Notes under the pieces: generated by a model
The model's database searches: none
The model's input: the letters and a program-made list of their open reading frames with translations, nothing else
What the model was told of the DNA's origin: nothing
DNA from: Planctopirus ephydatiae
GTDB taxonomy: Bacteria; Planctomycetota; Planctomycetia; Planctomycetales; Planctomycetaceae
Reading direction: 5' to 3'
DNA: 64,000 nt
NCBI RefSeq assembly: GCF_007752345.1
Contig: NZ_CP036299.1
Coordinates: forward strand, 3,869,501 to 3,933,500
Made by a program: the position numbers and the translations under genes
In this document: piece after piece, positions 18,994 through 62,095 of the stretch
How the letters are laid out: each line of letters begins with the position of its first letter
Numbering within the stretch: the first letter of the stretch is position 1

Positions 18994-21900
18994 ATGGCAA
19001 CTATTCAACCATCCGATGAATCGCCCGCCTTCGTCGACTTTGACGAATTTGTCGCCTATCAGCTGGGCGAGGTGAAATCGGCTGTGCGGTCGACGGACCT
19101 CACCACGGCTATTGTGGGGAGCTTTGCATGGGTCAGTGCCCTGTGTGCCCTATTCGTGATTTCTGACCAGTGGTTGTTTGCCGATGGCTGGAGCATGGTG
19201 GCCCGGTGGATCTGGCTGGCAGTTCTCGTGAGTGGCCTGGGCTGGTGGTTAACTCGCACGTTGCTGCATCCCCTTCTGCGTAAGGTGAGTCCACTTTATG
19301 CTGCCAAAGAGCTGGAGACAGCCGTCCCGGCTCTCAGGCGGAATCTGGTCAATCTGGTGGATCTGCAGTCTGCGGGCCGACCTGTCGCACCGGCTGTCTT
19401 GAAGGCCTTGCAAAAGCGAGCGGCAGTTTCTCTAGAAGAAGTGCAGCCCAGGCAAGCGATCGACCACACTCACCTGCTCTGGGTCTCTTGTGCACTGCTG
19501 GCGACGGTCGTTCTGCTGGCGGTCTATGCCGTCATGTCGCCCAAGCCGATCTGGCCGTCTTTATGGCGCATGATTCCTTTCACGTCGATTGACGCTCCCA
19601 CGGAAACATTGATTCGAGAAGTGACACCGGGCTCGACAGTCCGCCTGGCGGGGTCAATGCTCGATGTCGAAGCCCAACTGGCAGGACGTATCCCTGAGCT
19701 CGTCGAGCTGAAGTTCACGACCGTTGATCAGCAGTTTGTGGACGAAACCGTCCGTATGGCTCCCGTGGGCCAGGGAGGTGCGCGGTTTGAAGCCAGACTG
19801 CTGGGTGAACGAGGAGAAGGATTCACTCAGTCATTCTCGTATTACATTCAAGCCGGTGATGCCCGCTCGGCAATTTACCAGGTGAGCATTGTCACCCCTC
19901 CCCATGCAAACGTGGAAGAAGTCGAGATCCAGGCACCGGCTTATACAGGTATCGAGAAGCAGGTCAGCCGAGGTGGTGCCATTCATGCGTGGGTCGGTTC
20001 GGAGGTGAAAATCCGGGCAATGGCGAATCAACCCGTCACTTCAGCCACCATGATCTTCTTTGACGACGACGGCATGACGCCAACGGGTGAGGAACTTCCT
20101 GTGCGGTTGTCTCAAAACCGCGAACTGACTGCCGACTATCGTCCACAACTTCGAGAAGACGGTACATACGCGAGGTACTACTCGATCATCGTTCGCACAG
20201 CAGGTGGAGAAACTGACCCTGCGCCAACCATCTATCCGATTGCCCTGCAGATTGATCAGCCCCCAGAGATCCGGATGGTGCTTCCGGAAAATGATGTAGC
20301 TGCCGCTGCCAATTCGACGGTGGGATTTGTTTTCACGGCCCGCGATGTTGATTTTCTTCTGGGCCCGATGACACTCATTGCCGAAAAACAGGGGCAGATC
20401 ATTGCCCGGGAGGAACTGGCCGCCGGTGGTGTTTCACAACAGACAGCGAAGACCACACTACGCCTGGATCGTTTTGCACTGCAGGAGAATGATGAACTCA
20501 AGGTCTATGCCACCGTCCAGGATAATCGCCAGCCGACACCGAATACGGCTCGCTCCGACACACGGCTGATTCGAATTCAAGGAGTCTTGCCTCCGCAGAA
20601 ACAGCAGGAACAGCGTCAGCAGGCCGAAAAGCAGGCCCAACAGGTCGAAGAACAGGCCCGGCAAAATGCGGCCCAGAACCAGGCAGGAAATGAACCGCCA
20701 GCAGATCCTGCACAGCAGGATCCGGGTCAAGCTCCCGAGGCGATGTCCGATCGCCCACAGGAAGGCGAAGGAAATCCTGGGCAAAATGCCAATGATCCCT
20801 CGCAGGCCAATGATCCAACACGAGCCAAAGACAAGCGTGCGGGCGAAGGGATGAATCAGAATGATTCACAATCTCGTGACGACATTCCCACCTCTGATCG
20901 TTCCGACAATGCGAATGGGAAACCCGGTGAGGAACGTGGTGATCCTTCAGAAAACAACCGGACTGAAGGAAAATCAGCTTCCGAACGGAAGGGCGAAAAT
21001 CAGGATTCGTCTCGCCAACAGAACAATGACTCAGGCTCGAAGACTTCTCCTGAAAATACTCCCGCAGACCCGAAAAACCAGTCTGGTTCCTCAGGCCAGC
21101 CGAAATCCAACCAGCAGGACCCCAACCAGCAGGACAGTGGCCCGCAGAATATGGGCCAACAGAACAAGGGCCAGCAGGGCTCCAACAAATCTGACCAGGG
21201 ATTATCACCCAACGGAGAAGATGATTCGGAAGCCTTGAAACGGTTGTTGGAAAAAGCCCGTCAGGAATCCCGTCAGCCCAATTCCAAAGGTCAGGAATCG
21301 GGGAACGAATCCCGTCAAGAAGATAAGGTTCAACCCGAACACGAGGCCGACAAGTCCTCATCAGGTGGTCAATCCGATGATCGCAAGCGAGGAGATGAAG
21401 GCTCCAGCAAGGAGTCAATGACGGAAGACTCCACGAACTCTTCGAAGGAAAATTCTGCTGAAAAACAGCCGCCCGGGAATGATCCTCGACAAGGAGCGTC
21501 GTCCCAGAATTCTCCTGGCGAAATGAATGCTCCTCAAGCATCAAAAGAACCAGCAAACCCCAAGGAGAGAATGGCTGACGGCCAAACTAAACCCCCAGGT
21601 GACTCTCAACCTGAAAGTGCGGAGACAGGAGATACTGGCAAACCTTCATCTCCTCAGAGCAAAAACTCTTCACAGCCAATGTCTGGAAATGAAAAAGAAT
21701 CACAGTCCAGGGCCAATGGAGAGAAATCGGACTCTGCTGGTGATGAAAATTCATCGGCAAAGAATCCCGGCGCATCAGGAAATGAATCTGCCAAAAATGG
21801 CAAAGGATCTCGTCCCAATGATCAATCTTTGAAACCCAATTCTGACAATCCTGCCATTGCGAGTGACCCCGATGGCAATCCCTCGGGAACAGATCCATCC

Positions 21901-23652
21901 CAACCTGGTGGGCAGAAAAACAAAGCCTCAGATCCATCGATGGGCCAGCCCAGCGAGAAACTCCAGGGCAAGTCTCAAGAGGGGGGCAAGGATGACGAGA
22001 TGCCGGCTCAAAGGCGCCCCGGTGAAGATGGATCGACGGGAGACCTGAAGGCCGATAACGAACGTCCTCAGAATTCACCCGCTGGCAAGGCAGATCCTGG
22101 TGCCTCCAGCCCGAAGAATGCACCCAAGAGCCCTGCTGCACCATCTTCTGATGAAATGCCTCCGTCCGATCAACGGCCTCAAGATGCGTCGGCAGGTGAA
22201 CGAGGTATGGATCGACAGGCACAAAAGACAAACACTCCCGGGGAACCTTTGGAGCAATCTCCCAATCAACAACCGGCTGCACGGCCGAATTCCGATCCTC
22301 AGGATGTTCCTGCCGGAAGTGGTGAGAAGATGCGCGGCGAATCAGGGAAACCGCCCAAGGCCAATCAGAAATCGCAGCAGGCCGAAAGTGGTGAGGCTGG
22401 TCAATCATCCTCCAATCCGGATGGCGCGGATGGCATGGCGGAAGGGAGCGGTAACGATACGTCTTCCGAGCGAGCAAAACCCGGAGAGGCGGGAAGACCG
22501 GGCACAAGCACCGCAAAAGAGAAGGGAGCACCAGGCGCTGGAAGCCAGCAGAAACCTTCCGGAGAAGGACCTGCTGGTTCGAAAAAAGGATCACAGCAGA
22601 AATCGGGAGGCAATGACCAGCCAGAAGGTGGTGAGCCAGCGGGGATGAACTCACCGGCAGATGGCAAAAATGGGAGTCAACCACCTGCTAACCCGGCAGA
22701 TGCAAAAGGGGGGGCTTCGAAAACAGGTAGCACTCCTGAGAATTCACCACCAGGTAATAGCAACGAAAAATCAGCCGGAGAAGGCAATTCGTCTTCCAAT
22801 CCCTCTGGCAACAAAACTCCGGACAATAAGCCTCCAGGCAAGGAAGCTGCTGGTGGTCAGGGCGATAAAGGCAACCAGAGCGGTGAGAAAGGTGGCCAGG
22901 GTGATAAGGGTCAGGGCGGCGAGAAGGGTCAGGGAGGCGAGAAGAGTCAGGGCGGTGAAGGTAGCGAGGCTGGCCAGAGTAGTGGAAAAGGTGGTGGGAA
23001 AGGTGGATCTTCGCCAGCTTCTGGCACGCCTTCCAGTTCCGGAGCATCATCTGGCGAGCCTGCTGGTCAGTCATCGTCAGCCACTGGTGGTGGGGCCGGG
23101 GGGGAGATGACACCAAGGGGTTCCGCTGACAATTCCTCCAATCCCAACGGGGCATCGGGTGGTAAAGAAGGCAACGAGAATCAGGCGGCGAGTGGCCCTG
23201 CTGCGAATGCACCGGCCGATCAAAATCAGGCCAACCCTGAGTTTGAAAAAGAGGCCGCAGAGTTAGTGCTCGATCAATTGGAGCGGCAACTGGAACGTGG
23301 TCAGGTCGATCAAAAACTACTGGATGATCTCGGCTGGAATGAGCAGCAGATGCGATCGTTTGCGAAGCGGATGCGAGAGCAGATTAACGCCGCTAAATCG
23401 ACGGATCCCACACCAGAAGATCTGTTGAGGAAACGTCAGTTTGAAGAAATGCTCGAATCGGCCAGGATATCCCGACAAAGAGTAGAAGCGCAAGGGAAAG
23501 CTGTGCCACAGCGTGATATTGACCAGGCCGGAAGTCGTCGTTCACAAGTTCCGGAACAATATCGCCAGCGATTCGAGGCCTACACGCGTGGCGTTCAGAA
23601 AAAATCTGCAACACCCGCACCTCCATCGCCAACCCCTGCCCCGAAGCCATGA
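18994..23652 (+). CDS. Giant membrane-anchored protein with an 880-residue low-complexity region
   Basis: A 1552-residue protein. Residues 1-180 hold about three membrane helices. Residues 200-520 look folded and beta-rich, with 'PPHANVEEVEIQAPAYTG' near 300 and 'LQIDQPPEIRMVLPENDVAA' near 420, resembling domains seen in DUF4175-type proteins. From about 530 to 1410 the sequence consists almost only of Q, N, S, G, P, E, D, K, A and R with no cysteine, so it is very probably disordered. It becomes a G-E-K-G-Q repeat near 1290-1330. A compact charged helical domain ends the protein ('AAELVLDQLERQLERGQVDQ', near 1420-1545). With an odd number of helices after a cytoplasmic N-terminus, the long region would be extracytoplasmic. 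It follows the two VWA genes by 232 nt. The function is not known; a tether or filler across the periplasm is an inference. Confidence 0.85.
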   Translation: MATIQPSDESPAFVDFDEFVAYQLGEVKSAVRSTDLTTAIVGSFAWVSALCALFVISDQWLFADGWSMVARWIWLAVLVSGLGWWLTRTLLHPLLRKVSPLYAAKELETAVPALRRNLVNLVDLQSAGRPVAPAVLKALQKRAAVSLEEVQPRQAIDHTHLLWVSCALLATVVLLAVYAVMSPKPIWPSLWRMIPFTSIDAPTETLIREVTPGSTVRLAGSMLDVEAQLAGRIPELVELKFTTVDQQFVDETVRMAPVGQGGARFEARLLGERGEGFTQSFSYYIQAGDARSAIYQVSIVTPPHANVEEVEIQAPAYTGIEKQVSRGGAIHAWVGSEVKIRAMANQPVTSATMIFFDDDGMTPTGEELPVRLSQNRELTADYRPQLREDGTYARYYSIIVRTAGGETDPAPTIYPIALQIDQPPEIRMVLPENDVAAAANSTVGFVFTARDVDFLLGPMTLIAEKQGQIIAREELAAGGVSQQTAKTTLRLDRFALQENDELKVYATVQDNRQPTPNTARSDTRLIRIQGVLPPQKQQEQRQQAEKQAQQVEEQARQNAAQNQAGNEPPADPAQQDPGQAPEAMSDRPQEGEGNPGQNANDPSQANDPTRAKDKRAGEGMNQNDSQSRDDIPTSDRSDNANGKPGEERGDPSENNRTEGKSASERKGENQDSSRQQNNDSGSKTSPENTPADPKNQSGSSGQPKSNQQDPNQQDSGPQNMGQQNKGQQGSNKSDQGLSPNGEDDSEALKRLLEKARQESRQPNSKGQESGNESRQEDKVQPEHEADKSSSGGQSDDRKRGDEGSSKESMTEDSTNSSKENSAEKQPPGNDPRQGASSQNSPGEMNAPQASKEPANPKERMADGQTKPPGDSQPESAETGDTGKPSSPQSKNSSQPMSGNEKESQSRANGEKSDSAGDENSSAKNPGASGNESAKNGKGSRPNDQSLKPNSDNPAIASDPDGNPSGTDPSQPGGQKNKASDPSMGQPSEKLQGKSQEGGKDDEMPAQRRPGEDGSTGDLKADNERPQNSPAGKADPGASSPKNAPKSPAAPSSDEMPPSDQRPQDASAGERGMDRQAQKTNTPGEPLEQSPNQQPAARPNSDPQDVPAGSGEKMRGESGKPPKANQKSQQAESGEAGQSSSNPDGADGMAEGSGNDTSSERAKPGEAGRPGTSTAKEKGAPGAGSQQKPSGEGPAGSKKGSQQKSGGNDQPEGGEPAGMNSPADGKNGSQPPANPADAKGGASKTGSTPENSPPGNSNEKSAGEGNSSSNPSGNKTPDNKPPGKEAAGGQGDKGNQSGEKGGQGDKGQGGEKGQGGEKSQGGEGSEAGQSSGKGGGKGGSSPASGTPSSSGASSGEPAGQSSSATGGGAGGEMTPRGSADNSSNPNGASGGKEGNENQAASGPAANAPADQNQANPEFEKEAAELVLDQLERQLERGQVDQKLLDDLGWNEQQMRSFAKRMREQINAAKSTDPTPEDLLRKRQFEEMLESARISRQRVEAQGKAVPQRDIDQAGSRRSQVPEQYRQRFEAYTRGVQKKSATPAPPSPTPAPKP
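22855..22983 (+). repeat. Imperfect Gly-Glu/Asp-Lys-Gly-Gln coding repeat
   Basis: Inside the giant gene, about seven short in-frame units of the type GEKGGQGDKGQGGEKGQ follow one another, at residues of about 1288-1330. The DNA units are degenerate at third codon positions, so the repeat is maintained at protein level rather than being a fresh DNA expansion. Confidence 0.75.
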
Positions 23653-35977: not shown

Positions 35978-35993
35978 GCAGTGTTACAACCCA
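35960..35993. repeat. Near-direct repeat spanning both stop codons of rdgB and glnE
   Basis: GTGTTACAATCCCA at 35960-35973 recurs as GTGTTACAACCCA at 35981-35993 (one base deleted). The first copy is followed at once by the rdgB TGA (35975-35977); the second contains the glnE stop (35984-35986, read on minus). It resembles the stop-codon duplications at 13258 and 18754. Confidence 0.7.
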
Positions 35994-38900
35994 ATTGATC
36001 CGTGCGTCCCCTCTTCGAGAACAGCGCCTGGCACACTGGCCATCTCAACATCCGGATGCGAGTCCAGATTCGGATCTGTCCACCGGCGCACCAGTTCCGT
36101 CACAACTTGAATATGCTTTTCCATTTCACTCGCCAGTTCAGCTTCCCGGTCGTGATAACCCAGACGCCTGGCCAGAAACTCGAACTCCTCGCTGCTGGCA
36201 GGAGGGACTGTCAAATCGCGAGCATCGCCTCGCACCATGCGCAGTGCATCGATTAATGCCCGATGAAAGCGATAAGCGGCTTTAAGTTTTTCAGCATCAT
36301 CTAATGGTAAAAGCGCCAGATCCCGCATCATTCTGAGAGCTTCGCGAGTGTTTGTCGTCCGCAATTCGGGATGGGTCGATCCCCACGTCAATTGCAGGGC
36401 TTGAACCAGATACTCACAGTCCACAAGACCACCAGGGCTCAGCTTGGCATTGAAACCATCACTATTGGAAAGCTGTCTCACCTGCCTTTCCCGTAAGGCT
36501 CGCATGGCTGCAAAGTCAAATTTCTGACCCGAGTACAACACCTGATCACGAAATGCTTCCAGCGCTTTCCCGAGTTCCTGGTCTCCCGCCACATGACGCA
36601 GCTTCACTAACGCCTGACGTTCATAAGGCCAGGCTGGGCCACCGAACCCGAAGTAGCTGATGAAAGCCTCTTTCGAGACCGCCAGATTGCCAGCCTTGCC
36701 ATAAGGCCTCAATCGCAAATCAATCCGAAAGATCCCTTCCTGCCGGGCGAAGATCGATTGAGAAAACAGTTCCACGAGGCGATGAAAGAATTCACTCGTG
36801 GCAATCGGGCGAGGCCCATCAGTTTTCCCCTCACCTTCATACACCAGCATGAGCTCAATATCTGAGGCAAAGCCCATCTCTTTGCCCCCACATTTCCCTA
36901 ACGCCAGCACTGTCCAACTGCACGGACTTCCTGCATGCAAAAGTGGCGAGCCATGCCGCCATGTCAGTTCCCGCAATGACATTTCAAACGCACGCGAAAC
37001 GACCACTTCCGCAAGATCTGTCAACTCATTCGAAAAGTGACCAAATGGCCCGATGTATCCCAGAATATGCCGCATATCGATGCGGAACATTTCACGATCC
37101 TTGAAGGAATTCAGCCGCAATTGCCAGCGGGAAAGATCGGCCCCCTGAAAAATCTCCTGCCTCAATTCCTCCGCCAGTTGCTCTTTAGTTGTCGCAATCT
37201 GCAACCCCTCCACATCTGCCAGGACAGGGAACAGATTCGAATGCTGCAAACGGAGAAAGTCCTGCCAGAGAAAATCACTGATCCCGAGGAGTTTGGCCAG
37301 TGCATCGAGCACTTCCGGCCGCTCCAGCGACGAAAGCTGCTCCCACCACGCCTCCTGCAGAAAAAGTTCCTGCAAGAACTGGCGAAAATGCACCAGTGCC
37401 GCCTCCGGATTCGGAGCCTTTGGCAACAGATGCGTGAACTGCTGTATGAGCGCAATGGCTGCTTTCAGCTCTTCAACATGCCGATCATCCTGAATCCGGC
37501 CACCTCGTCGGGCATCAGTAATCAGAAGTGTATCATGAACTCGATGCCCTTCATTGCGGATCGCCATCTGTTCGATGGCCACACCACAGATCGCCAGGGC
37601 GTTCGTAAATTCGTACAAAAAGCCGATCGAGTCATCGGCTTTCAGGCACAGGAGTGTCGCCTGCCGCTCACGGGCATCCTGGACAGAAATCTCGACTGGT
37701 AACAACCGGGAACCTGAGGATTCATTCCCCCGCAGAGCAGCCGCGACTCGCTTCGCCAGTAAACCTTGAGCCTCTGCATGGCCTTTAGTTCTCGCGACAT
37801 GTTTGAGAGTCCGCAGATCATCTTCATAACGCTGCCACAATTCCGGAACGACAGCATCAACTAAAGGCTTGGCGTGAAAGACATCGACAAAATCCCGGAG
37901 ATGTTGTTGATGGACTTCCCTTGTGACACGCTTATTCGTTCGCAGAGACTGGGCATAACGTGTGAGGATTTCGGATGGATGACAATCGGTGAATACGTCA
38001 CCACTGCAGATGTCAAAGCCGTACACAAATAACAGCCCGCAGATCATGGACAGGTCACCGGGCTCATCCACTCCCAGAACTGTCACGCGGTAAGCACCAT
38101 CTGGCATCGAGTTGGCATCGACCCGCACCGATTGCTCGATTGTCAACTCCTGCAACCAATCCCGATGCTTCTGACGCTCTTCTTTCGAGAAAGCCTTTTC
38201 ATAACTGACAAGACCAAATGTCTCGACGCTTGCGGTATGCAAAGGTTGAATTTCAATGGGCTCAACAGTTTCTGTCAGCAGATACTTTTCATAAATACGT
38301 CGAATCTCACGGCTATGATCCTCATAGTGGCGGATAAACGTCGCGGCATCGGGAAAATCGAGTCTTCTCGCCAGATAAGATAGTTCCCGCTCGTTCTCTG
38401 GAAGTGCGTGGTCTTGCTTATTGTGCATTAACTGAATGGCATGCTCGATGGTTCTCAGGAAGACATATCCCACTGTCAACTGCCGATATTCATCTGCCTG
38501 CAGGAACCCCTGATCGGCCAGCCTGACCAGTGAATCGAGTGTATTCCTTGAACGAATATGTGGATGTGTCAATCCACGAGTCATCTGCAGGTACTGCACA
38601 ATGAACTCAATATCTCGAATCGAGCCCATACCCGATTTCACTTCTCCCCATTGCCGACCGCGCCGAACCAGGCCCTGCTCGATCTTCTGTTTTGATTCTC
38701 GAATGCTGGCTCGCACTGCAGATTCGGGAGCACCATGAATGACATTTTCTATCAATCCCAGAAACTCTTCACCCAGGGCAAAGTCACCGGCAATGACTCG
38801 AGCCTTGATCAATGCCTGCTTTTCCCAGATGGCAGCATGGCGGGACAGATACGTCAGATACGCTTCAGGAGTCGAAACCAGATTCCCCGAACGCCCCCAG

Positions 38901-39910
38901 GGTCTTAAACGCGTATCAACTCGATACAAAAAGCCTTCATCGCTCGCATCGTTCAGAAATCGCACCAGGCGCTGTGCCACCAGCAAGTCATCCGTATTTC
39001 CTCGATGCAGAAAGACCAGGTCGATATCCGAACTGTAGTTAAGTTCTTCGCCACCTAGCTTGCCGAGTGCAAGGACAGTAAAGCCGCTGACCGAAGCATA
39101 AAGATTTCCAGCAGCTAAGCGCAAACCACATTCTACGACAGCATCCGCCAGCAGCGAAAGCTGATTGACAACTCCGCGAAAATCCATCAATCCAAACGTA
39201 TCGCAAGCGCCGATGCGCAACATTTCACTATGTCGAAATCGCCGCACCGCATTCGCCGGATCAGCCCCCGGCTGCAAAGCACTCACCGCCTCGACAGCAC
39301 CTTCAAAAAACTCCTGCCGACTTCGCAAATCGGCCAGTCGATGATGATGTGTCAGTTGCTCCAGCAGTGCAGGCCGCCTTAAAAGAATCCCAGTCAGATA
39401 CTGGCTGCCGACGAACAGCTTCAACAGGATCTCGACAGCTCTGGGGTGAGCCGCCAGATAGGAATAGAGATGATCCGGATCCGGGTATTTTTGAATGTAC
39501 CGCTCAAAGTTCAGTATCGACTGATCGGGGTGTGGTAATGAAGAAACAATGGCAATCAACTGCTCCAGCGTCGCCATCCGCACGATCTCGCTGGTCTGGC
39601 GATTCCTCCCCAGATGAATCAACTGCGACCGTTCCAAGACCTGATCTGGAGTCACAGAACCCGGCTGGGAACCAGCCCTGCCCGCATCAGCCCGGGCTTT
39701 ACTCGCTCCAGCCGCAGGATTGGCTCCAGCCCCTGTGGAACGCTCGGCTCCTTGATAAAGAGAACGACTTCCACCCAGCAGCAATTGAGTGAGCCTTTGC
39801 CGGGCTTGAGACGGATTTTCAAACTCCAACCTGGCCAGAAATTCTTCAATTCGTGCGGACTGATCAGGATCTCGCAGAGATTCAATCAGTTCCCGCCATG
39901 TGGGTTGCAT
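35984..39910 (-). CDS. glnE: Glutamine synthetase adenylyltransferase/adenylyl-removase with two inserted ACT-like domains
   Basis: A 1308-residue protein from the ATG at 39910; family members are usually about 950-1000. The N-terminal (deadenylylating) nucleotidyltransferase has 'LGKLGGEELNYSSDIDL' near 281-298, followed by its helical domain 'GSIRDIEFIVQYLQMTRGLT'. The C-terminal (adenylylating) one has 'LGKCGGKEMGFASDIELM' near 1003-1021 and 'LSPGGLVDCEYLVQALQLTW'. Between them lies an extra block of about 250 residues with two ACT-like patterns: 'DEPGDLSMICGLLFVYGFDI' near 615 and 'ADDSIGFLYEFTNALAICGV' near 758. The enzyme switches glutamine synthetase on or off by removing or adding AMP. 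In GlnD, ACT domains bind glutamine, so this GlnE may sense an amino acid itself. The start is set by a GGAAAGAGA site. No PII or GlnD gene is nearby. Confidence 0.93.
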   Translation of the reverse strand: MQPTWRELIESLRDPDQSARIEEFLARLEFENPSQARQRLTQLLLGGSRSLYQGAERSTGAGANPAAGASKARADAGRAGSQPGSVTPDQVLERSQLIHLGRNRQTSEIVRMATLEQLIAIVSSLPHPDQSILNFERYIQKYPDPDHLYSYLAAHPRAVEILLKLFVGSQYLTGILLRRPALLEQLTHHHRLADLRSRQEFFEGAVEAVSALQPGADPANAVRRFRHSEMLRIGACDTFGLMDFRGVVNQLSLLADAVVECGLRLAAGNLYASVSGFTVLALGKLGGEELNYSSDIDLVFLHRGNTDDLLVAQRLVRFLNDASDEGFLYRVDTRLRPWGRSGNLVSTPEAYLTYLSRHAAIWEKQALIKARVIAGDFALGEEFLGLIENVIHGAPESAVRASIRESKQKIEQGLVRRGRQWGEVKSGMGSIRDIEFIVQYLQMTRGLTHPHIRSRNTLDSLVRLADQGFLQADEYRQLTVGYVFLRTIEHAIQLMHNKQDHALPENERELSYLARRLDFPDAATFIRHYEDHSREIRRIYEKYLLTETVEPIEIQPLHTASVETFGLVSYEKAFSKEERQKHRDWLQELTIEQSVRVDANSMPDGAYRVTVLGVDEPGDLSMICGLLFVYGFDICSGDVFTDCHPSEILTRYAQSLRTNKRVTREVHQQHLRDFVDVFHAKPLVDAVVPELWQRYEDDLRTLKHVARTKGHAEAQGLLAKRVAAALRGNESSGSRLLPVEISVQDARERQATLLCLKADDSIGFLYEFTNALAICGVAIEQMAIRNEGHRVHDTLLITDARRGGRIQDDRHVEELKAAIALIQQFTHLLPKAPNPEAALVHFRQFLQELFLQEAWWEQLSSLERPEVLDALAKLLGISDFLWQDFLRLQHSNLFPVLADVEGLQIATTKEQLAEELRQEIFQGADLSRWQLRLNSFKDREMFRIDMRHILGYIGPFGHFSNELTDLAEVVVSRAFEMSLRELTWRHGSPLLHAGSPCSWTVLALGKCGGKEMGFASDIELMLVYEGEGKTDGPRPIATSEFFHRLVELFSQSIFARQEGIFRIDLRLRPYGKAGNLAVSKEAFISYFGFGGPAWPYERQALVKLRHVAGDQELGKALEAFRDQVLYSGQKFDFAAMRALRERQVRQLSNSDGFNAKLSPGGLVDCEYLVQALQLTWGSTHPELRTTNTREALRMMRDLALLPLDDAEKLKAAYRFHRALIDALRMVRGDARDLTVPPASSEEFEFLARRLGYHDREAELASEMEKHIQVVTELVRRWTDPNLDSHPDVEMASVPGAVLEEGTHGSIGL

Positions 39911-39915
39911 GTCGA

Positions 39916-39924
39916 TCTCTTTCC
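39916..39924 (-). promoter_or_regulatory. Ribosome-binding site that fixes the glnE start
   Basis: GGAAAGAGA on the minus strand, five bases before the ATG at 39910. The frame is open to 39949, but the upstream ATG has no such site and encodes non-family residues. Confidence 0.6.
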
Positions 39925-40080
39925 AGAAAGCATCTGCGGATCTCAGCATGCCATCTTGCGGGCAACCTGATGCCCCACAGGAGCTATACTGACATCAACC
40001 TTTTGATGACATCGATCAACCAGTTGACGCATTCCAAACCGATCTTTTCTCATGTATGGAGTTTAACCCTCGAATGGCCA

Positions 40081-56002: not shown

Positions 56003-57451
56003 TCATCCATCCACACGTCCGGCAGCGAAACGCGCGAACCTGATCAGGGCGGTAATTCCTGTGATGCACAGGATGATTTTCCAACTCCATGACCATCCAC
56101 TCACAACGGGACTCGAATTCTCTTCGGAAGTTCGATCATCGTTCGAGGGGTGAGCTTGGAATGGATTTGCTGGCACCAGAGCTGTTTCCCATGGCTCGAA
56201 GATTCCCTTCCCTGCCTTGCTGATGATCAGAGGCTCATCCTCTTCGGCTGAATAGAACAAAGCCGCCAATTGATATTCATCCGCCAGCATCAACCCTTTT
56301 TCTCGACCAGCGACCATGAGTGATGTCGCCCAGCCATCTGCCAGAATCGGGTTCTCATGATAGACACTCACCAGTGAGGCTGTGGCTTTCAGTGGCTGCC
56401 CTGTCTGTGGTTCGATCAGATGAGAAACCTGATCGCGTGACTCGACATCGGGCCATTTTTGTCGATACGTCCCTGAGGTACTCACGCATCCCTTGAGAGA
56501 GCGAACAACGGCCAGGCTTTTTGTCGCATCGATGGGCGATTCGACAAAGATCTTAACTCCTACCTGATTTTGGGTCTGCGAGAATAATCGCTCGCAATCA
56601 ATGAGATACTCTCCACCTAAGGAGAGCAGGCAAGCCAACACGCCTGCTCTCTGACAACAGCCTCTCATCTTCTCCAGCGCGAGACCTTCGACCAGAGCAT
56701 TCAAATCGAGTTGGATCTCCGGATGATTTTTTCGAACTTGGGGTGGTTCAGTCGTCACCTCCACAGCCTGCCAATCGATGATGGGAATGACCTCGGGATC
56801 CTGTTGACGAGGCTGAGGATTCTTCGAACGGGAAGTGGGCCAGATCGAGCGGAACTTTCGGGCTTCCATGACGCCGGCAATCGTTGGGTCAAAGGCTCCC
56901 TCGCTTTGTCTGGCCTGCCGCAACGCTTCCTGCACGAGTCGTGCAAAATCAGGCGAGACAACCTGCCAATCGATCGCCCTATGGTGATTCCACCGACTGA
57001 TTTCTGATTGGCTTCGATACAGCGAAAAGATTGATTCCAGCCTCTCCAGTTCCGCTTGCAACTCCTGTTTCAGAGCCACTCGATCGAAGACGACATCATC
57101 CCGGCACCAGACCTGAACCTTCCACCCCATCCCCATGGCCATTCCCGATAGCTCACAAGAAGCGATAGTCGCCCCTGTCTCTGCAAAACCAGCCACGGGA
57201 ACTTGAGACGAGTTCCTTTCTGATTGAAGGGGCTGTGTGCCAAGCCTGCTGTCTGGGGATGGCTTTGATTCGCGTTTATCAGCAGCCACCCCAACAAGGT
57301 GATTCGCATGATCAGGTTCTGACGAACGACAGATAACAGCCAGCGAACACCAGGCCAGCACCACGAGCAGACTATTCAGAGATGGTCGGCCCATGCGGAT
57401 CTGCATTTGACCATCCATCGCCCTCTCTGTCTGAAATGGCGTCCCTCTCAT
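56003..57451 (-). CDS. apbE: ApbE-type FAD:protein FMN transferase, membrane-anchored
   Basis: A 482-residue protein. It has an N-terminal signal or anchor ('LNSLLVVLAWCSLAVI') and a C-terminal helix ('IILCITGITALIRFARFAAG'). The ApbE domain runs from about 110: 'SIFSLYRSQSEISRWN', 'EGAFDPTIAGVM', 'DLNALVEGLALEK' (most homologues have K where E stands), 'LLSLGGEYLID', 'HLIEPQTGQPL' and the Mg/flavin site 'LADGWATSLMVAG'. ApbE moves FMN from FAD onto a Thr or Ser of (S/T)GAT-type motifs in exported proteins. Its ATG overlaps the stop of the NosR-like gene by four bases (ATGA), and that neighbour carries two such motifs, so it is the obvious target. It is the last gene of the operon. Confidence 0.9.
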   Translation of the reverse strand: MRGTPFQTERAMDGQMQIRMGRPSLNSLLVVLAWCSLAVICRSSEPDHANHLVGVAADKRESKPSPDSRLGTQPLQSERNSSQVPVAGFAETGATIASCELSGMAMGMGWKVQVWCRDDVVFDRVALKQELQAELERLESIFSLYRSQSEISRWNHHRAIDWQVVSPDFARLVQEALRQARQSEGAFDPTIAGVMEARKFRSIWPTSRSKNPQPRQQDPEVIPIIDWQAVEVTTEPPQVRKNHPEIQLDLNALVEGLALEKMRGCCQRAGVLACLLSLGGEYLIDCERLFSQTQNQVGVKIFVESPIDATKSLAVVRSLKGCVSTSGTYRQKWPDVESRDQVSHLIEPQTGQPLKATASLVSVYHENPILADGWATSLMVAGREKGLMLADEYQLAALFYSAEEDEPLIISKAGKGIFEPWETALVPANPFQAHPSNDDRTSEENSSPVVSGWSWSWKIILCITGITALIRFARFAAGRVDG

Positions 57452-59364
57452 GGTCCAACCACATCCCATAGCATCAAGCCACCCGCAATGATCAGGCAGG
57501 CCATCGCCAGAAAATCTCCCGGCTGAATCTGGCCACTCCGGGCATGCCGACGCAAATACTCAAGCAAACTTCCTGTCGGGCAGCCAAACCGGCAATATCC
57601 CATCGGAATGAACCACGAGATCACCAGACTTCCGATTGCCAGCACTGTCGTGATCCAGCCAGCGGCTCTCCACGAATAAGCATCAAATGGTTCCAGATCA
57701 ACCAGACTGATCGAGAGCACTCCCATCGATCCACACAACGCCACCAGTAGTAAAGCCGGTATCACCAGTTTCAGTACCGAGACCACACTGGCTGGCAATT
57801 TCGGACGCCAGTGTCGATGACCCGCCATCCACTGCTGGAGCACACCATGTGGACAGAGATGCGAGCAATAGACATTCGTTCGAGCCACCAGAGGCAATGC
57901 CACAGCAGCAATCGACATGGCAATCAATCCTCCCGCACTATTCCACGGGATCCCACTCTGAGCCCAACCGCTGAACATGGCTAAAGACAGGAGTTCGCCG
58001 TTCATTACTCCCAGATATCCCAGTACCAAAAGCTGCAATCCCCGTCGGACCCATAGGTTTCCCCGCAGATGGGTTAACCCCACCAGACAAGCCAGAATGA
58101 CGACAAGTGCCGTCAGAGTTTGTTGCCAGAGTCGAGGCGATGACCAGTTGATGGTTTTAATCAAGCCAAAGATGCCCGTCGCCTGATTTTTCGAGTCGAT
58201 CGACGGCTGTTTCTGCTGAGCTTCCATCTCTTTTGATAACTCGATCGCAGCAGCCAGCAACCCCCGGGCAATCGTCTGGCTGGTCATTGTGGCACCAGAG
58301 ACTCCTTCGACACCCCACTCTTCAAAAGTCGTCTCGGCAAGTCCCTTCACCGTCTTGCCCTTAATGAGTTCGGCAAACCAGGCGTCGTCGCGAACATATC
58401 CCACATAGGGCTCGTTATCAAAACTGCGACCGACCAGCAGTTGGCCCAGATGTCCATCGGGGAGCAGGCTGACCAGCACTTCCGTCGGCCCCTGATAACC
58501 AATCAATTGATCGGCTGCTGGTACCGTTCGAAAAATCTGGCCTAACCTCCGGCCATCAGCAGCAAAGACATCCAGAAGCAAAGATGTCTCGGCATGAGGT
58601 TCAAAACGTGAAGCTTGTGGAAACAGCTTCTGCACATCCTCAATCGTCACAGCCAAAGGAAAACGCGTCGAATCCGCTGGTCTGGCAGCCACCACCTGTT
58701 GAGAATTCAGTCGAGCTTCCAACCCCTGGAGGATGGCCAGACATGTTAAGGTTGCCCCAGCCACATGCCGCATGGCTGATTGATCAACGATGTCTTCACT
58801 GACTGTTTGAAAGCCCTTCCCATTCCATTGGGCCAGGAATTTTCCATCCCTCACAATCAGTTCCACATGGTCACGAGTATCTCGACTGGCTGCGATCTCT
58901 GCCCAGGCCACCTTGCCTTCGATATCCCAACCCATTAACAAGTTAGTGGGCCCGGAAAATCCCAGGAAGCGATCACTGGCCGGTGTGGTCTGTGTGACGT
59001 ATCCCACTGGAGTTGACTGTGCACCCAGCACGACAAAATCGACAAGCTGGTCGAACTTCTGGGAATTGCTGCGGGGCAATCCACCGTCCGATATCTGTTC
59101 AGCCTGCCCGCGCGGTACCAACCTTCGAGCCTCCGGCCAGAACTTCTGCACCACTGGCAGATATCGTGCGGTAAGATCCTTCGCTTGCGCCCGGGATTTG
59201 ATCTGCTCAGCCTGCGAGCGAATCAAGAAGATCAGCAGCACCAGCAGCAGAACCCGGCCTGTATGGATGACTGTATTCCAAAAGAATCGACCGGGCCCTC
59301 TCAATGGTTTTGAAAGGGCTTCCCGGTCGACAACGGGCAGCAGGTTGTGGCGAACGCCACTCAT
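57448..59364 (-). CDS. NosR-like membrane flavoprotein with two FMN-binding domains and CX3CP clusters
   Basis: A 638-residue protein. One N-terminal helix (about 33-48) leads to a periplasmic part with two FMN-binding domains. The first has 'VAGATLTC' at 201-208, the second 'VSGATMTS' at 355-362, each the expected site for covalent FMN. The C-terminal half has about six helices and two CX3CP motifs, C500-SHL-C504-P and C591-RFG-C595-P, as in NosR/NapH (Fer4_5-type). The classic 8-Fe ferredoxin tail of NosR is missing; the chain ends after a last helix. Family members pass electrons across the inner membrane. Its start overlaps the FAD-oxidoreductase stop and its stop overlaps the apbE start, both by ATGA. 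Electron direction and partner are inferred. Confidence 0.85.
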   Translation of the reverse strand: MSGVRHNLLPVVDREALSKPLRGPGRFFWNTVIHTGRVLLLVLLIFLIRSQAEQIKSRAQAKDLTARYLPVVQKFWPEARRLVPRGQAEQISDGGLPRSNSQKFDQLVDFVVLGAQSTPVGYVTQTTPASDRFLGFSGPTNLLMGWDIEGKVAWAEIAASRDTRDHVELIVRDGKFLAQWNGKGFQTVSEDIVDQSAMRHVAGATLTCLAILQGLEARLNSQQVVAARPADSTRFPLAVTIEDVQKLFPQASRFEPHAETSLLLDVFAADGRRLGQIFRTVPAADQLIGYQGPTEVLVSLLPDGHLGQLLVGRSFDNEPYVGYVRDDAWFAELIKGKTVKGLAETTFEEWGVEGVSGATMTSQTIARGLLAAAIELSKEMEAQQKQPSIDSKNQATGIFGLIKTINWSSPRLWQQTLTALVVILACLVGLTHLRGNLWVRRGLQLLVLGYLGVMNGELLSLAMFSGWAQSGIPWNSAGGLIAMSIAAVALPLVARTNVYCSHLCPHGVLQQWMAGHRHWRPKLPASVVSVLKLVIPALLLVALCGSMGVLSISLVDLEPFDAYSWRAAGWITTVLAIGSLVISWFIPMGYCRFGCPTGSLLEYLRRHARSGQIQPGDFLAMACLIIAGGLMLWDVVGP

Positions 59365-61652
59365 GGGGCAGAAGTCTTCACTGGCGGAACGATCTTCACC
59401 AGTTGAAGTGCATCGGCATGTACAACACCTCCAGCATTCTCGGTTCCAATCTCGACAAAGACCTCTTCACCTTTTTTGACCTCGAAGCGACCAAGCTCAT
59501 GCGAGCCATCTTTCCCGGCAGGGGCTTTGTTCATATCGACCAGTACCTGCCTGGTCGAATTGCCAATCTGGATGGTGACCGGGACGGCCTTCCCCCGATT
59601 TTCATGAGCCCCATAAATCAACCGGAATGAAATCAGCCCTTCTTCAGCCGTCTTCCACGAGTACTTGACCTTAGCGCCCGAGTTGGCAGGTGCGTAAAGG
59701 TATTCATAACCCACATACCCATTGAGACCACTGCCACTCGTCCAGTTGCCAGAAATTTTGGCATCGCGGTTATCAATCACGACGCCTTCCATCCGGGTTG
59801 GATCGAGCCCCGGTGGCCCGGGTAATGACATCGCATCTGCTGGAATAACGACATCGCTCGAAAGTGATTCTCGGCGGGCTTTGCCAGGCAATTGGAGGAG
59901 TGTATCCATCTCCTTCCAGTAGCTTTCATAAACATCACGCGGCTGACAGTCATGTAATGCACATAGATAGGCTGCTTTGCCGACAACTTCGCCCATCATG
60001 CCGCAGGTCTTCATCACGCGGGTTGTCCCTAAGGCTTCATGCGTGACACTGATATTCCGCCCTGCCATAAAGAGGTTGTTGATATCTTTCGAATAGAAGC
60101 AGCGATAAGGAACGGGATAACCGTAAGCCCGATCGATGCGCTGATCATGCACAGCGATCGAAATGAAAGGATTGTCGGCAAATTTGTCGGCAAACTGCTT
60201 CTTGGGATAGTGCAGATCAATGCTCCAGGTACTCGGCACGCAGCCATCCGGGAACTCTCGTTTACTGACAATATCCTCCTGAGTCAGCACCACATCACCC
60301 GTTAATCGGCGTGATTCTCGCGGCCCGCCGATAAATGCCACCCAGGTCAGAATGGCATTTCGATGCTTCTCAGCTCCATCGCCATTCTTCATGGCGTTAA
60401 ACGCACCAAAGACGGCTCGCAGGTTCCAGTCGCGAATCCCTTCAGCATCCTGTAGAGGATCTTTGTCGTAACCACTCTCCCAGAACCACTGGCCGTGATG
60501 ATCCACAGGGTAAGGAAAATCCTTCATGGTCAGTGGTAACGCCCACGGAGTCTCCGGGAATGTCGTGGGAGAACGGACTTCATCCCATGTCCACATATTG
60601 CTCATGCCCATGCGGCCCTTGTCGGTCATCTCCCAGGCGGCCTCCGCTTGAGCACCAATTGTTCCATGACCTGTCGCATCGACAAAGAGCTTACCCCAGA
60701 ACTCGAATTGCTCGCCGGTCTTGACGTTAAACGCCTTGACGGCGTCAATCCGTGCTGGCTGAGATTTTTTGACCCCGTTGGCAAACGTGTGGAGAAACAA
60801 ATCGATCTTGTCTTCAGCACTGACAATTCGTTCCTTCTTTGCGTCTTCGAATTCGTCTGCAGTGCCGGGCGATTTCTTCGCGTGATCGCAGAACTCTTCG
60901 ACGATCTCGCCCACTCGGGGATATTTGCCCCGGCGAATCAGGCCCATCGACCAGACTCGAACTTCACTCGATCCATTTCCGCCCAATACACCCCGATCCT
61001 GGATCAGAGCGACTTTACAACCCATCCGAGCTGCCGAGAGTGCGGCACCGATCCCCGCATAACCGCCACCGACAACAACAAGGTCGTAACCCTTCTTGAT
61101 CGTCGGGGTTTCACTGAGCCCTAAACCTTTGGCGCGATAGGCTGCTAATTCTTTCGCTGCGGCCGGTGGAGCCTGAGTGGATTTCGTCAATACGATTGCA
61201 TCGCAGCGACCGTCAAACCCAGTCAAATCATGTAGCAACAATCGATGCTCGCCGGTTTTGAGTTCGACTTCCCCACCAGGTTGCCAGAACCAGTTTGCCG
61301 ATTCTGTTCCAAACTCAGTGGCCAGAGGTTGGCCATCTATCAGCAATTGAAATCGGCCCGGTTTGCCAGAGGCTTTCCAGCGAGCCACCCAGTCTTTAGT
61401 TCGGACATAGACACGGTACTTCCCACCCTCAGTCACTTTGAAGGTCGTTGTCGCATCCGCGACAGGATTTCCCAACCCATGTGCCAACAGATAGGGTGAT
61501 CCCATCTCTGTAATGAACTGAGTATCGAGCGACCACCCGCCTGGCTCGCGAAAACTTTCTGCTTCGACGAATACGGTCTCTTCCGCAGCCCAGGCCAGGG
61601 AACAGGTCGCACAGAAAGTGGCCATCAACCAGAGTCTTAAGGGGCGAATCAT
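59361..61652 (-). CDS. Secreted FAD-dependent oxidoreductase with flanking sugar-binding-like domains
   Basis: A 763-residue protein from the ATG at 61652 with a good AGAGGG site; the frame is open to 61679. The signal peptide 'MIRPLRLWLMATFCATCSLA' is Sec-type, with no twin-arginine. A beta-sandwich like those of carbohydrate-binding modules spans about 25-165 ('VEAESFREPGGWSLD', 'YRVYVRTKDWVA'). The FAD_oxidored core follows with the Rossmann loop 'VVVGGGYAGIGAALSAARMG' at 192-211, 'GGNGSSEVRVWSMG' and 'LFVDATGHGTIGAQA'. The C-terminal 110 residues resemble the golvesin/xanthan-lyase C-terminal domain ('ENAGGVVHADALQLVKI'). It probably oxidises or reduces a sugar or polysaccharide-linked group outside the cytoplasm. 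It is the first gene of a coupled operon with the NosR-like and ApbE proteins. Confidence 0.88.
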   Translation of the reverse strand: MIRPLRLWLMATFCATCSLAWAAEETVFVEAESFREPGGWSLDTQFITEMGSPYLLAHGLGNPVADATTTFKVTEGGKYRVYVRTKDWVARWKASGKPGRFQLLIDGQPLATEFGTESANWFWQPGGEVELKTGEHRLLLHDLTGFDGRCDAIVLTKSTQAPPAAAKELAAYRAKGLGLSETPTIKKGYDLVVVGGGYAGIGAALSAARMGCKVALIQDRGVLGGNGSSEVRVWSMGLIRRGKYPRVGEIVEEFCDHAKKSPGTADEFEDAKKERIVSAEDKIDLFLHTFANGVKKSQPARIDAVKAFNVKTGEQFEFWGKLFVDATGHGTIGAQAEAAWEMTDKGRMGMSNMWTWDEVRSPTTFPETPWALPLTMKDFPYPVDHHGQWFWESGYDKDPLQDAEGIRDWNLRAVFGAFNAMKNGDGAEKHRNAILTWVAFIGGPRESRRLTGDVVLTQEDIVSKREFPDGCVPSTWSIDLHYPKKQFADKFADNPFISIAVHDQRIDRAYGYPVPYRCFYSKDINNLFMAGRNISVTHEALGTTRVMKTCGMMGEVVGKAAYLCALHDCQPRDVYESYWKEMDTLLQLPGKARRESLSSDVVIPADAMSLPGPPGLDPTRMEGVVIDNRDAKISGNWTSGSGLNGYVGYEYLYAPANSGAKVKYSWKTAEEGLISFRLIYGAHENRGKAVPVTIQIGNSTRQVLVDMNKAPAGKDGSHELGRFEVKKGEEVFVEIGTENAGGVVHADALQLVKIVPPVKTSAP

Positions 61653-62095
61653 GAACAACCCTCTCAAATCAACGAGCAAGAATATCTTGTTGTATCATGC
61701 AGGTTTTTGGCAATTTTGCAATGATTGAATACGAACGATCCTCAGCAACAGGACTCCCTCAAGCATCTCTTCTGGACAGACGGGACGGCCAACTTGTGGA
61801 CTGGTCTTCTTCGGTCGCCATGACAGCCAAAAGCGGCATCTGCGTACGATCTGCTCCTATGCCATCAAAGGTTGAGTGGCAAGCACGGGAAGGCTGAAGA
61901 TCGAAACTCATCAGAAGAGCGTGATATTGTCAGACCGCCTATCGAACTCGATCGTCGCCGATGAGCCACTCGCATTTGCCGGGCTGGCATAGAGTCACTG
62001 GCTCATAAAAACACTGGCACAGTGATAGCACTGGTCAGAAGGTCGATGTCTCATAACATCAAAAACAGCCGCAGAATACGGAATCGACCAAAAGA
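61653..62095. other. Intergenic region between the flavin operon and tRNA-Gly
   Basis: 443 bases without a supported gene. The first 70 bases upstream of the oxidoreductase are AT-rich and presumably hold its promoter; no confident -35/-10 pair was assigned. The rest shows nothing recognisable. Confidence 0.5.
61659..61664 (-). promoter_or_regulatory. Ribosome-binding site of the secreted oxidoreductase
   Basis: AGAGGG on the minus strand, six bases before the ATG at 61652. It decides this start over the in-frame start at 61679. Confidence 0.6.

Follow-up and report, generated by a model that had tools for sequence, protein, structure and literature searches.

How does a glutamine synthetase adenylyltransferase (GlnE) that carries an extra block between its two catalytic halves read nitrogen status? 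The window analysed here, a stretch of 64,000 nucleotides of DNA from Planctopirus ephydatiae, encodes such a protein. In the bicyclic cascade of E. coli, the textbook form of nitrogen control, the signal passes from glutamine through GlnD, PII and GlnE to glutamine synthetase (GS). The first-pass annotation proposed that the block holds two ACT-like domains, with which this GlnE could sense glutamine or another amino acid directly, merging two steps of the cascade.

By its domain content, the window protein is a GlnE of a distinct clade, predicted to be a bifunctional GS adenylyltransferase/deadenylylase. Its open reading frame (1321 amino acids) occupies window positions 35984-39949 on the (-) strand, as do all its features given below. 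The second ATG, at 39910 (Met14), is probably the start rather than 39949, since the RBS-like GGAAAGAG stands upstream of it. Two stretches match Pfam GlnE (PF03710, E 1e-95) and mark the two catalytic halves, with a GlnD_UR_UTase stretch (PF08335) following each of these nucleotidyltransferase (NTase) domains. The N-terminal NTase, the adenylyl-removing half, has its best PF03710 stretch at residues 175-397 (38759..39427), and its helical PF08335 domain spans residues 419-555 (38285..38695). This half matches the crystal structure of the E. coli ATase (PDB 1v4a) at E 6e-45. In the C-terminal, adenylyl-transferring half, the helical domain lies at 36086..36502 (genome 3905586-3906002). Both halves carry the acidic metal-binding motif: SDIDL at residues 307-311 (39017..39031; SD[IV]DL in 70/70 homologues) and SDIEL at residues 1029-1033 (36851..36865), the latter being D-x-E and not D-x-D. 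Pfam finds no HD domain in the protein, and it does not belong to GlnD.

The window GlnE is nevertheless a variant that falls outside the canonical NCBIfam GlnE equivalogs, since it scores 468 bits with PRK11072 against a curated cut-off of 487, and far under the cut-offs of PRK14108 and PRK14109. Residues 833-1139 align to 507-812 of the PRK11072 model; together with the helices of the full-length structure model, this places an R-like helical region at residues ~846-960 (37070..37414), between the extra block and the transferase half. The extra block itself lies at ~570-845. The first-pass annotation rightly recognised an insertion, which adds ~260 residues.

Elsewhere in the window, a 1552-aa open reading frame at 18994-23652 (+) has no Pfam match. 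Positions 56003-61679 (-) encode ApbE, an FMN_bind and Fer4_5 protein (NosR/RnfG-like) and an FAD oxidoreductase with a Golvesin_C domain, a cluster that looks like a flavin-based redox module.

The extra block comprises two ACT domains of GlnD type, as the fold model and profile comparisons confirm. An AlphaFold2 model of residues 560-850, built with an alignment of 69 homologous inserts, gives two ACT folds (mean pLDDT 88.7, pTM 0.87), with the GlnD-type strand order of an extra leading strand followed by beta-alpha-beta-beta-alpha. Thus, the central claim of the first-pass annotation is borne out by the model, by GlnD-type profile matches and by the homologous inserts. ACT domain 1, with linker helices, covers residues ~605-725 (37775..38137) and is placed by AlphaFold2, the NCBIfam GlnD match and the profile comparison with GlnD. 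ACT domain 2 covers residues ~750-845 (37415..37702) and is placed by AlphaFold2, Pfam matches in homologues and alignment to the organism's own GlnD. The two positions singled out at first reading, residues 615 and 758 counted from Met14, are the beta1-alpha1 ligand loops D628-x-x-G631 (38057..38068) and D773-x-x-G776 (37622..37633), the second followed by F-L-Y. Across the 69 inserts, the glycine is present in 69/69 and the aspartate in 68/69 for each loop, and the F and L of the second loop are likewise found in 69/69.

Kinship with GlnD is seen at several levels. NCBIfam GlnD models match residues 595-827 by their C-terminal ACT end, and hhalign of the insert against the GlnD of the same genome gives 97.9%. 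The insert profile matches the C-terminal ACT pair of GlnD at E values down to 5e-30, with both ACTs in register in many cases. The insert of the window sequence alone stays under detection by Pfam ACT, while among the 69 homologous inserts Pfam ACT_ACR9_3rd is found in 66 and Pfam ACT in 55. Searched directly against PDB sequences, the insert profile finds only weak ACT matches (acetolactate synthase small subunits). In the PDB, Foldseek ranks mostly ACT-containing structures highest: L-GDH180, 2nyi, SerB2 and plant ACT-like domains. The top match, the mycobacterial large glutamate dehydrogenase L-GDH180 (7jsr), also a nitrogen enzyme with ACT-like domains, is a different enzyme that superposes poorly overall, the match being confined to its ACT-like part. 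The ACR (ACT repeat) proteins of plants share the GlnD-like repeats, as the ACR9 matches illustrate, but have no nucleotidyltransferase. GlnD itself has tandem ACTs of like sub-type and order, with an [IV]DN..S strand before ACT2. However, its pair is C-terminal, behind an HD hydrolase, in a protein that acts on PII, whereas here the pair lies between two NTase halves that act on GS. The ligand loops also differ: ACT1 of GlnE has Y/F-D-Y/Q-L/P-G, departing from the GlnD loop, and ACT2 has D-T/S-x-G-F-L-Y-E, compared with the D-R-P-G-L-L-Y common in GlnD.

ACT-bearing GlnE (ACT-GlnE) is widespread and phylogenetically distinct from canonical GlnE. Our genome scan recovered 78 related loci in Planctomycetota, Chloroflexota (mostly Anaerolineae), Calditrichota, KSB1, Fraserbacteria and a Nitrospinota-labelled MAG, some MAG labels in this set, such as 'Kuenenia', looking unreliable. 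These loci include planctomycete copies 98% and 82% identical to the window protein, so the insert is neither unique to one genome nor produced by assembly. When planctomycetes are sampled evenly, the ACT form occurs in all 13 sampled members of the window's own family, Planctomycetaceae, and in one member each of two further families, and the remaining GlnE read there are canonical; the form was called by a spacing of ~2.2 kb between PF08335 matches (vs ~1.6 kb) or by sequence, which was checked for 8 ACT-type and 20 canonical GlnE. The 151 Chloroflexota genomes sampled yielded three full-length GlnE, each of the ACT type. The insert is common inside its own clade, and it is not a general feature of GlnE: its profile leaves all 21 canonical GlnE unmatched (one from E. 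coli, 20 from planctomycetes).

The clade points to a single origin of ACT-GlnE followed by transfer between phyla. In a tree built on the columns common to canonical GlnE, with the insert excluded, the split between ACT-GlnE and canonical GlnE has a support of 1.0 and a branch length of 0.67. The window GlnE shares 43-54% identity with most ACT-GlnE, including those of other phyla, and 35-40% with the two deepest (L223 and L224), compared with 26-32% for canonical planctomycete GlnE and 26% for E. coli GlnE. One origin and interphylum transfer are suggested because the protein is closer to ACT-GlnE of other phyla than to the canonical planctomycete enzymes. The transferase-half motif also divides the two groups, being SD-x-E in 70/70 aligned ACT-GlnE homologues and SD-x-D in 21/21 canonical GlnE; D-x-E is permitted by the NTase superfamily pattern. 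The deep-branching L224 has the insert yet retains SD-x-D, so D-x-E does not mark every ACT-type enzyme. The ACT insertion may therefore have preceded the D-to-E change, with L224 as a possible intermediate. In its other features, the window GlnE resembles the canonical enzyme (E. coli b3053; PDB 1v4a, 3k7d): two homologous NTase halves with PF08335, an R-like region, D-x-D in the N-half and a cognate GS that carries the target tyrosine. It differs in the ACT pair before the R region and in the D-x-E of the C-half.

The window's own organism has a complete classical cascade. Its genome, a single complete contig of 5.21 Mb, carries amtB-glnK-glnB-glnD in one cluster ~31 kb before the window. 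Both PII genes have the RGAEY uridylylation motif, GlnD is full-length with the ACT pair at its C-terminal end, and GlnA has the adenylylation site DKDIYDLAPEE. An organism without PII and GlnD is thus ruled out, and the search for glnB and glnD suggested by the first-pass annotation finds both, along with glnK and amtB. Since all the classical cascade genes are present, the ACT pair is, on gene content, an addition to the cascade and replaces nothing. The proposed merging of two cascade steps is therefore not supported for this organism, which has GlnD, two PII proteins and AmtB. The same genome also encodes a second, distant glutamine synthetase (L086, C1:3455557-3456111; a 791-aa frame), probably of GSIII type and not an expected target of GlnE.

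Outside Planctomycetota, the cascade around ACT-GlnE is largely missing. GlnD is absent in 38/39 of these genomes, and PII has no match in 20/39 and no strong or clear match in 27/39, counts that are descriptive, as they come from few lineages that are not phylogenetically independent and include many MAGs. For the same reason, a Fisher test of PII presence was set aside as a test. The carriers without strong PII include one complete single chromosome (CP059258.1). Where a clear PII occurs without GlnD, its T-loop mostly lacks the RGAEY motif. For comparison, Planctomycetota genomes with canonical GlnE have PII in 42/44 and GlnD in 22/44. In the PII-poor genomes, GS keeps its adenylylation tyrosine (KD[LI]Y; most relatives read KD[LI]Y[DE]L). 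Of all 78 loci, 29 have glnA within the flanking sequence (up to 8 kb) analysed around glnE. The intact target tyrosine and the frequent proximity of the two genes suggest that the GS modification system has been retained without PII. Thus, a merged sensor-effector, not supported for the window organism, is plausible for most non-planctomycete carriers, where GlnD is absent and PII often is as well.

The absence of GlnD is insufficient as proof of direct sensing, as it is also missing beside canonical-length GlnE, in 22/44 planctomycete genomes and in many more of the Calditrichota/KSB1-related set. Two planctomycete genomes of ~2.8-2.9 Mb (G012 and G032, family f15) have canonical-length GlnE with neither GlnD nor a PII match. 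About 30 genomes of the Calditrichota/KSB1-related set, in which GlnD is not found, contain many ~1000-aa frames that PF08335 matches very weakly, once or twice each; these are possibly a divergent GlnE-like family.

A reduced form of the enzyme occurs in two Chloroflexota genomes. These half-size GlnE (865-882 aa; L228 984-3629 (+) in G208 and L229 1180-3774 (+) in G285) consist of ACT-ACT-R-transferase only, and neither genome has another PF08335 match that could represent the deadenylylating half. Neither GlnD nor PII is found in G208, and G285 has a marginal PII match only; GS of both keeps KDLYEL. If the ACTs control adenylylation, one would expect to find the pair joined to a lone transferase half, as here. 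The sequences themselves show the domain content, the fold, the relationship to GlnD, the clade, the genome contexts and the intact target tyrosine of GS.

What, then, does the ACT pair do? The reading we favour, and hold to be fairly probable, is that it provides GlnE with a direct amino-acid input that biases the enzyme toward adenylylation, glutamine being the first choice of ligand. A GlnD-type tandem ACT module would have entered the protein behind the deadenylylating half and ahead of the R region with the adenylylating half. The amino acid would bind at the two beta1-alpha1 loops, and the bound pair would bias GlnE to adenylylate, and hence inactivate, GS when that amino acid is abundant. 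In Planctomycetaceae, this input would act on top of the PII/GlnD cascade. For Anaerolineae, KSB1 and Calditrichota, where GlnD is missing and PII often is too, the ACT pair would be the strongest candidate for the chief nitrogen signal. Here, we infer the ligand, the direction of the effect, and any replacement of or independence from PII. The full-length model (pLDDT 85.6, pTM 0.57) does not fix the domain arrangement or the contacts between ACT and catalytic domains.

Glutamine is suggested by the GlnD ACT pair, which is regarded as a glutamine sensor (PMC3173338). The first-pass premise that GlnE reads nitrogen through PII holds in part, but is incomplete: glutamine acts on the canonical E. 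coli ATase at a third allosteric site, besides two PII sites (PMC5448240). Direct glutamine sensing by GlnE is therefore not new in itself; the new part is the sensor module, which may strengthen or replace the canonical glutamine input.

A bolder form of the favoured reading falls a little short of an even chance. Here, ACT-GlnE of Anaerolineae, KSB1 and Calditrichota would be a one-protein switch that senses glutamine and modifies GS without PII or GlnD, reduced to ACT-ACT-transferase in some Chloroflexota and serving as a second direct input beside PII in Planctomycetaceae. Two points count against the favoured reading: many ACT domains have a structural role or bind amino acids other than glutamine, and with the PII cascade intact in the window genome, no replacement for it is required there.

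There are two alternatives. The pair might sense an amino acid other than glutamine and so exert cross-pathway feedback on GS, as ACT domains bind many amino acids and both GlnE loops depart from those of GlnD. We regard this as unlikely, because the closest relatives detected for the pair are GlnD's ACTs, which are regarded as sensing glutamine, and the target enzyme produces glutamine. Equally improbable is a structural or protein-docking module (for dimerisation, or for docking GS or PII) that binds no amino acid and leaves control to PII or the canonical glutamine site, an idea consistent with that separate site (PMC5448240), the retained R region and full PII control in the window genome, but at odds with the near-invariant loop Asp and Gly of both ACTs across distant phyla and with their resemblance to the sensing pair of GlnD.

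ACT-GlnE is a known enzyme in a new form, assembled from known modules, widespread and apparently unstudied. Our search, confined to the open-access literature, found no description joining GlnE and ACT domains, and no treatment of GlnE in Chloroflexi or Planctomycetes beyond a gene list. If the proposed input is real in genomes without PII and GlnD, GS adenylylation can run without the PII cycle. ACT-GlnE would then provide a simple setting in which to study what PII contributes and how nucleotidyltransferases come under ACT control, as well as a hypothesis of nitrogen control for Anaerolineae and related bacteria.
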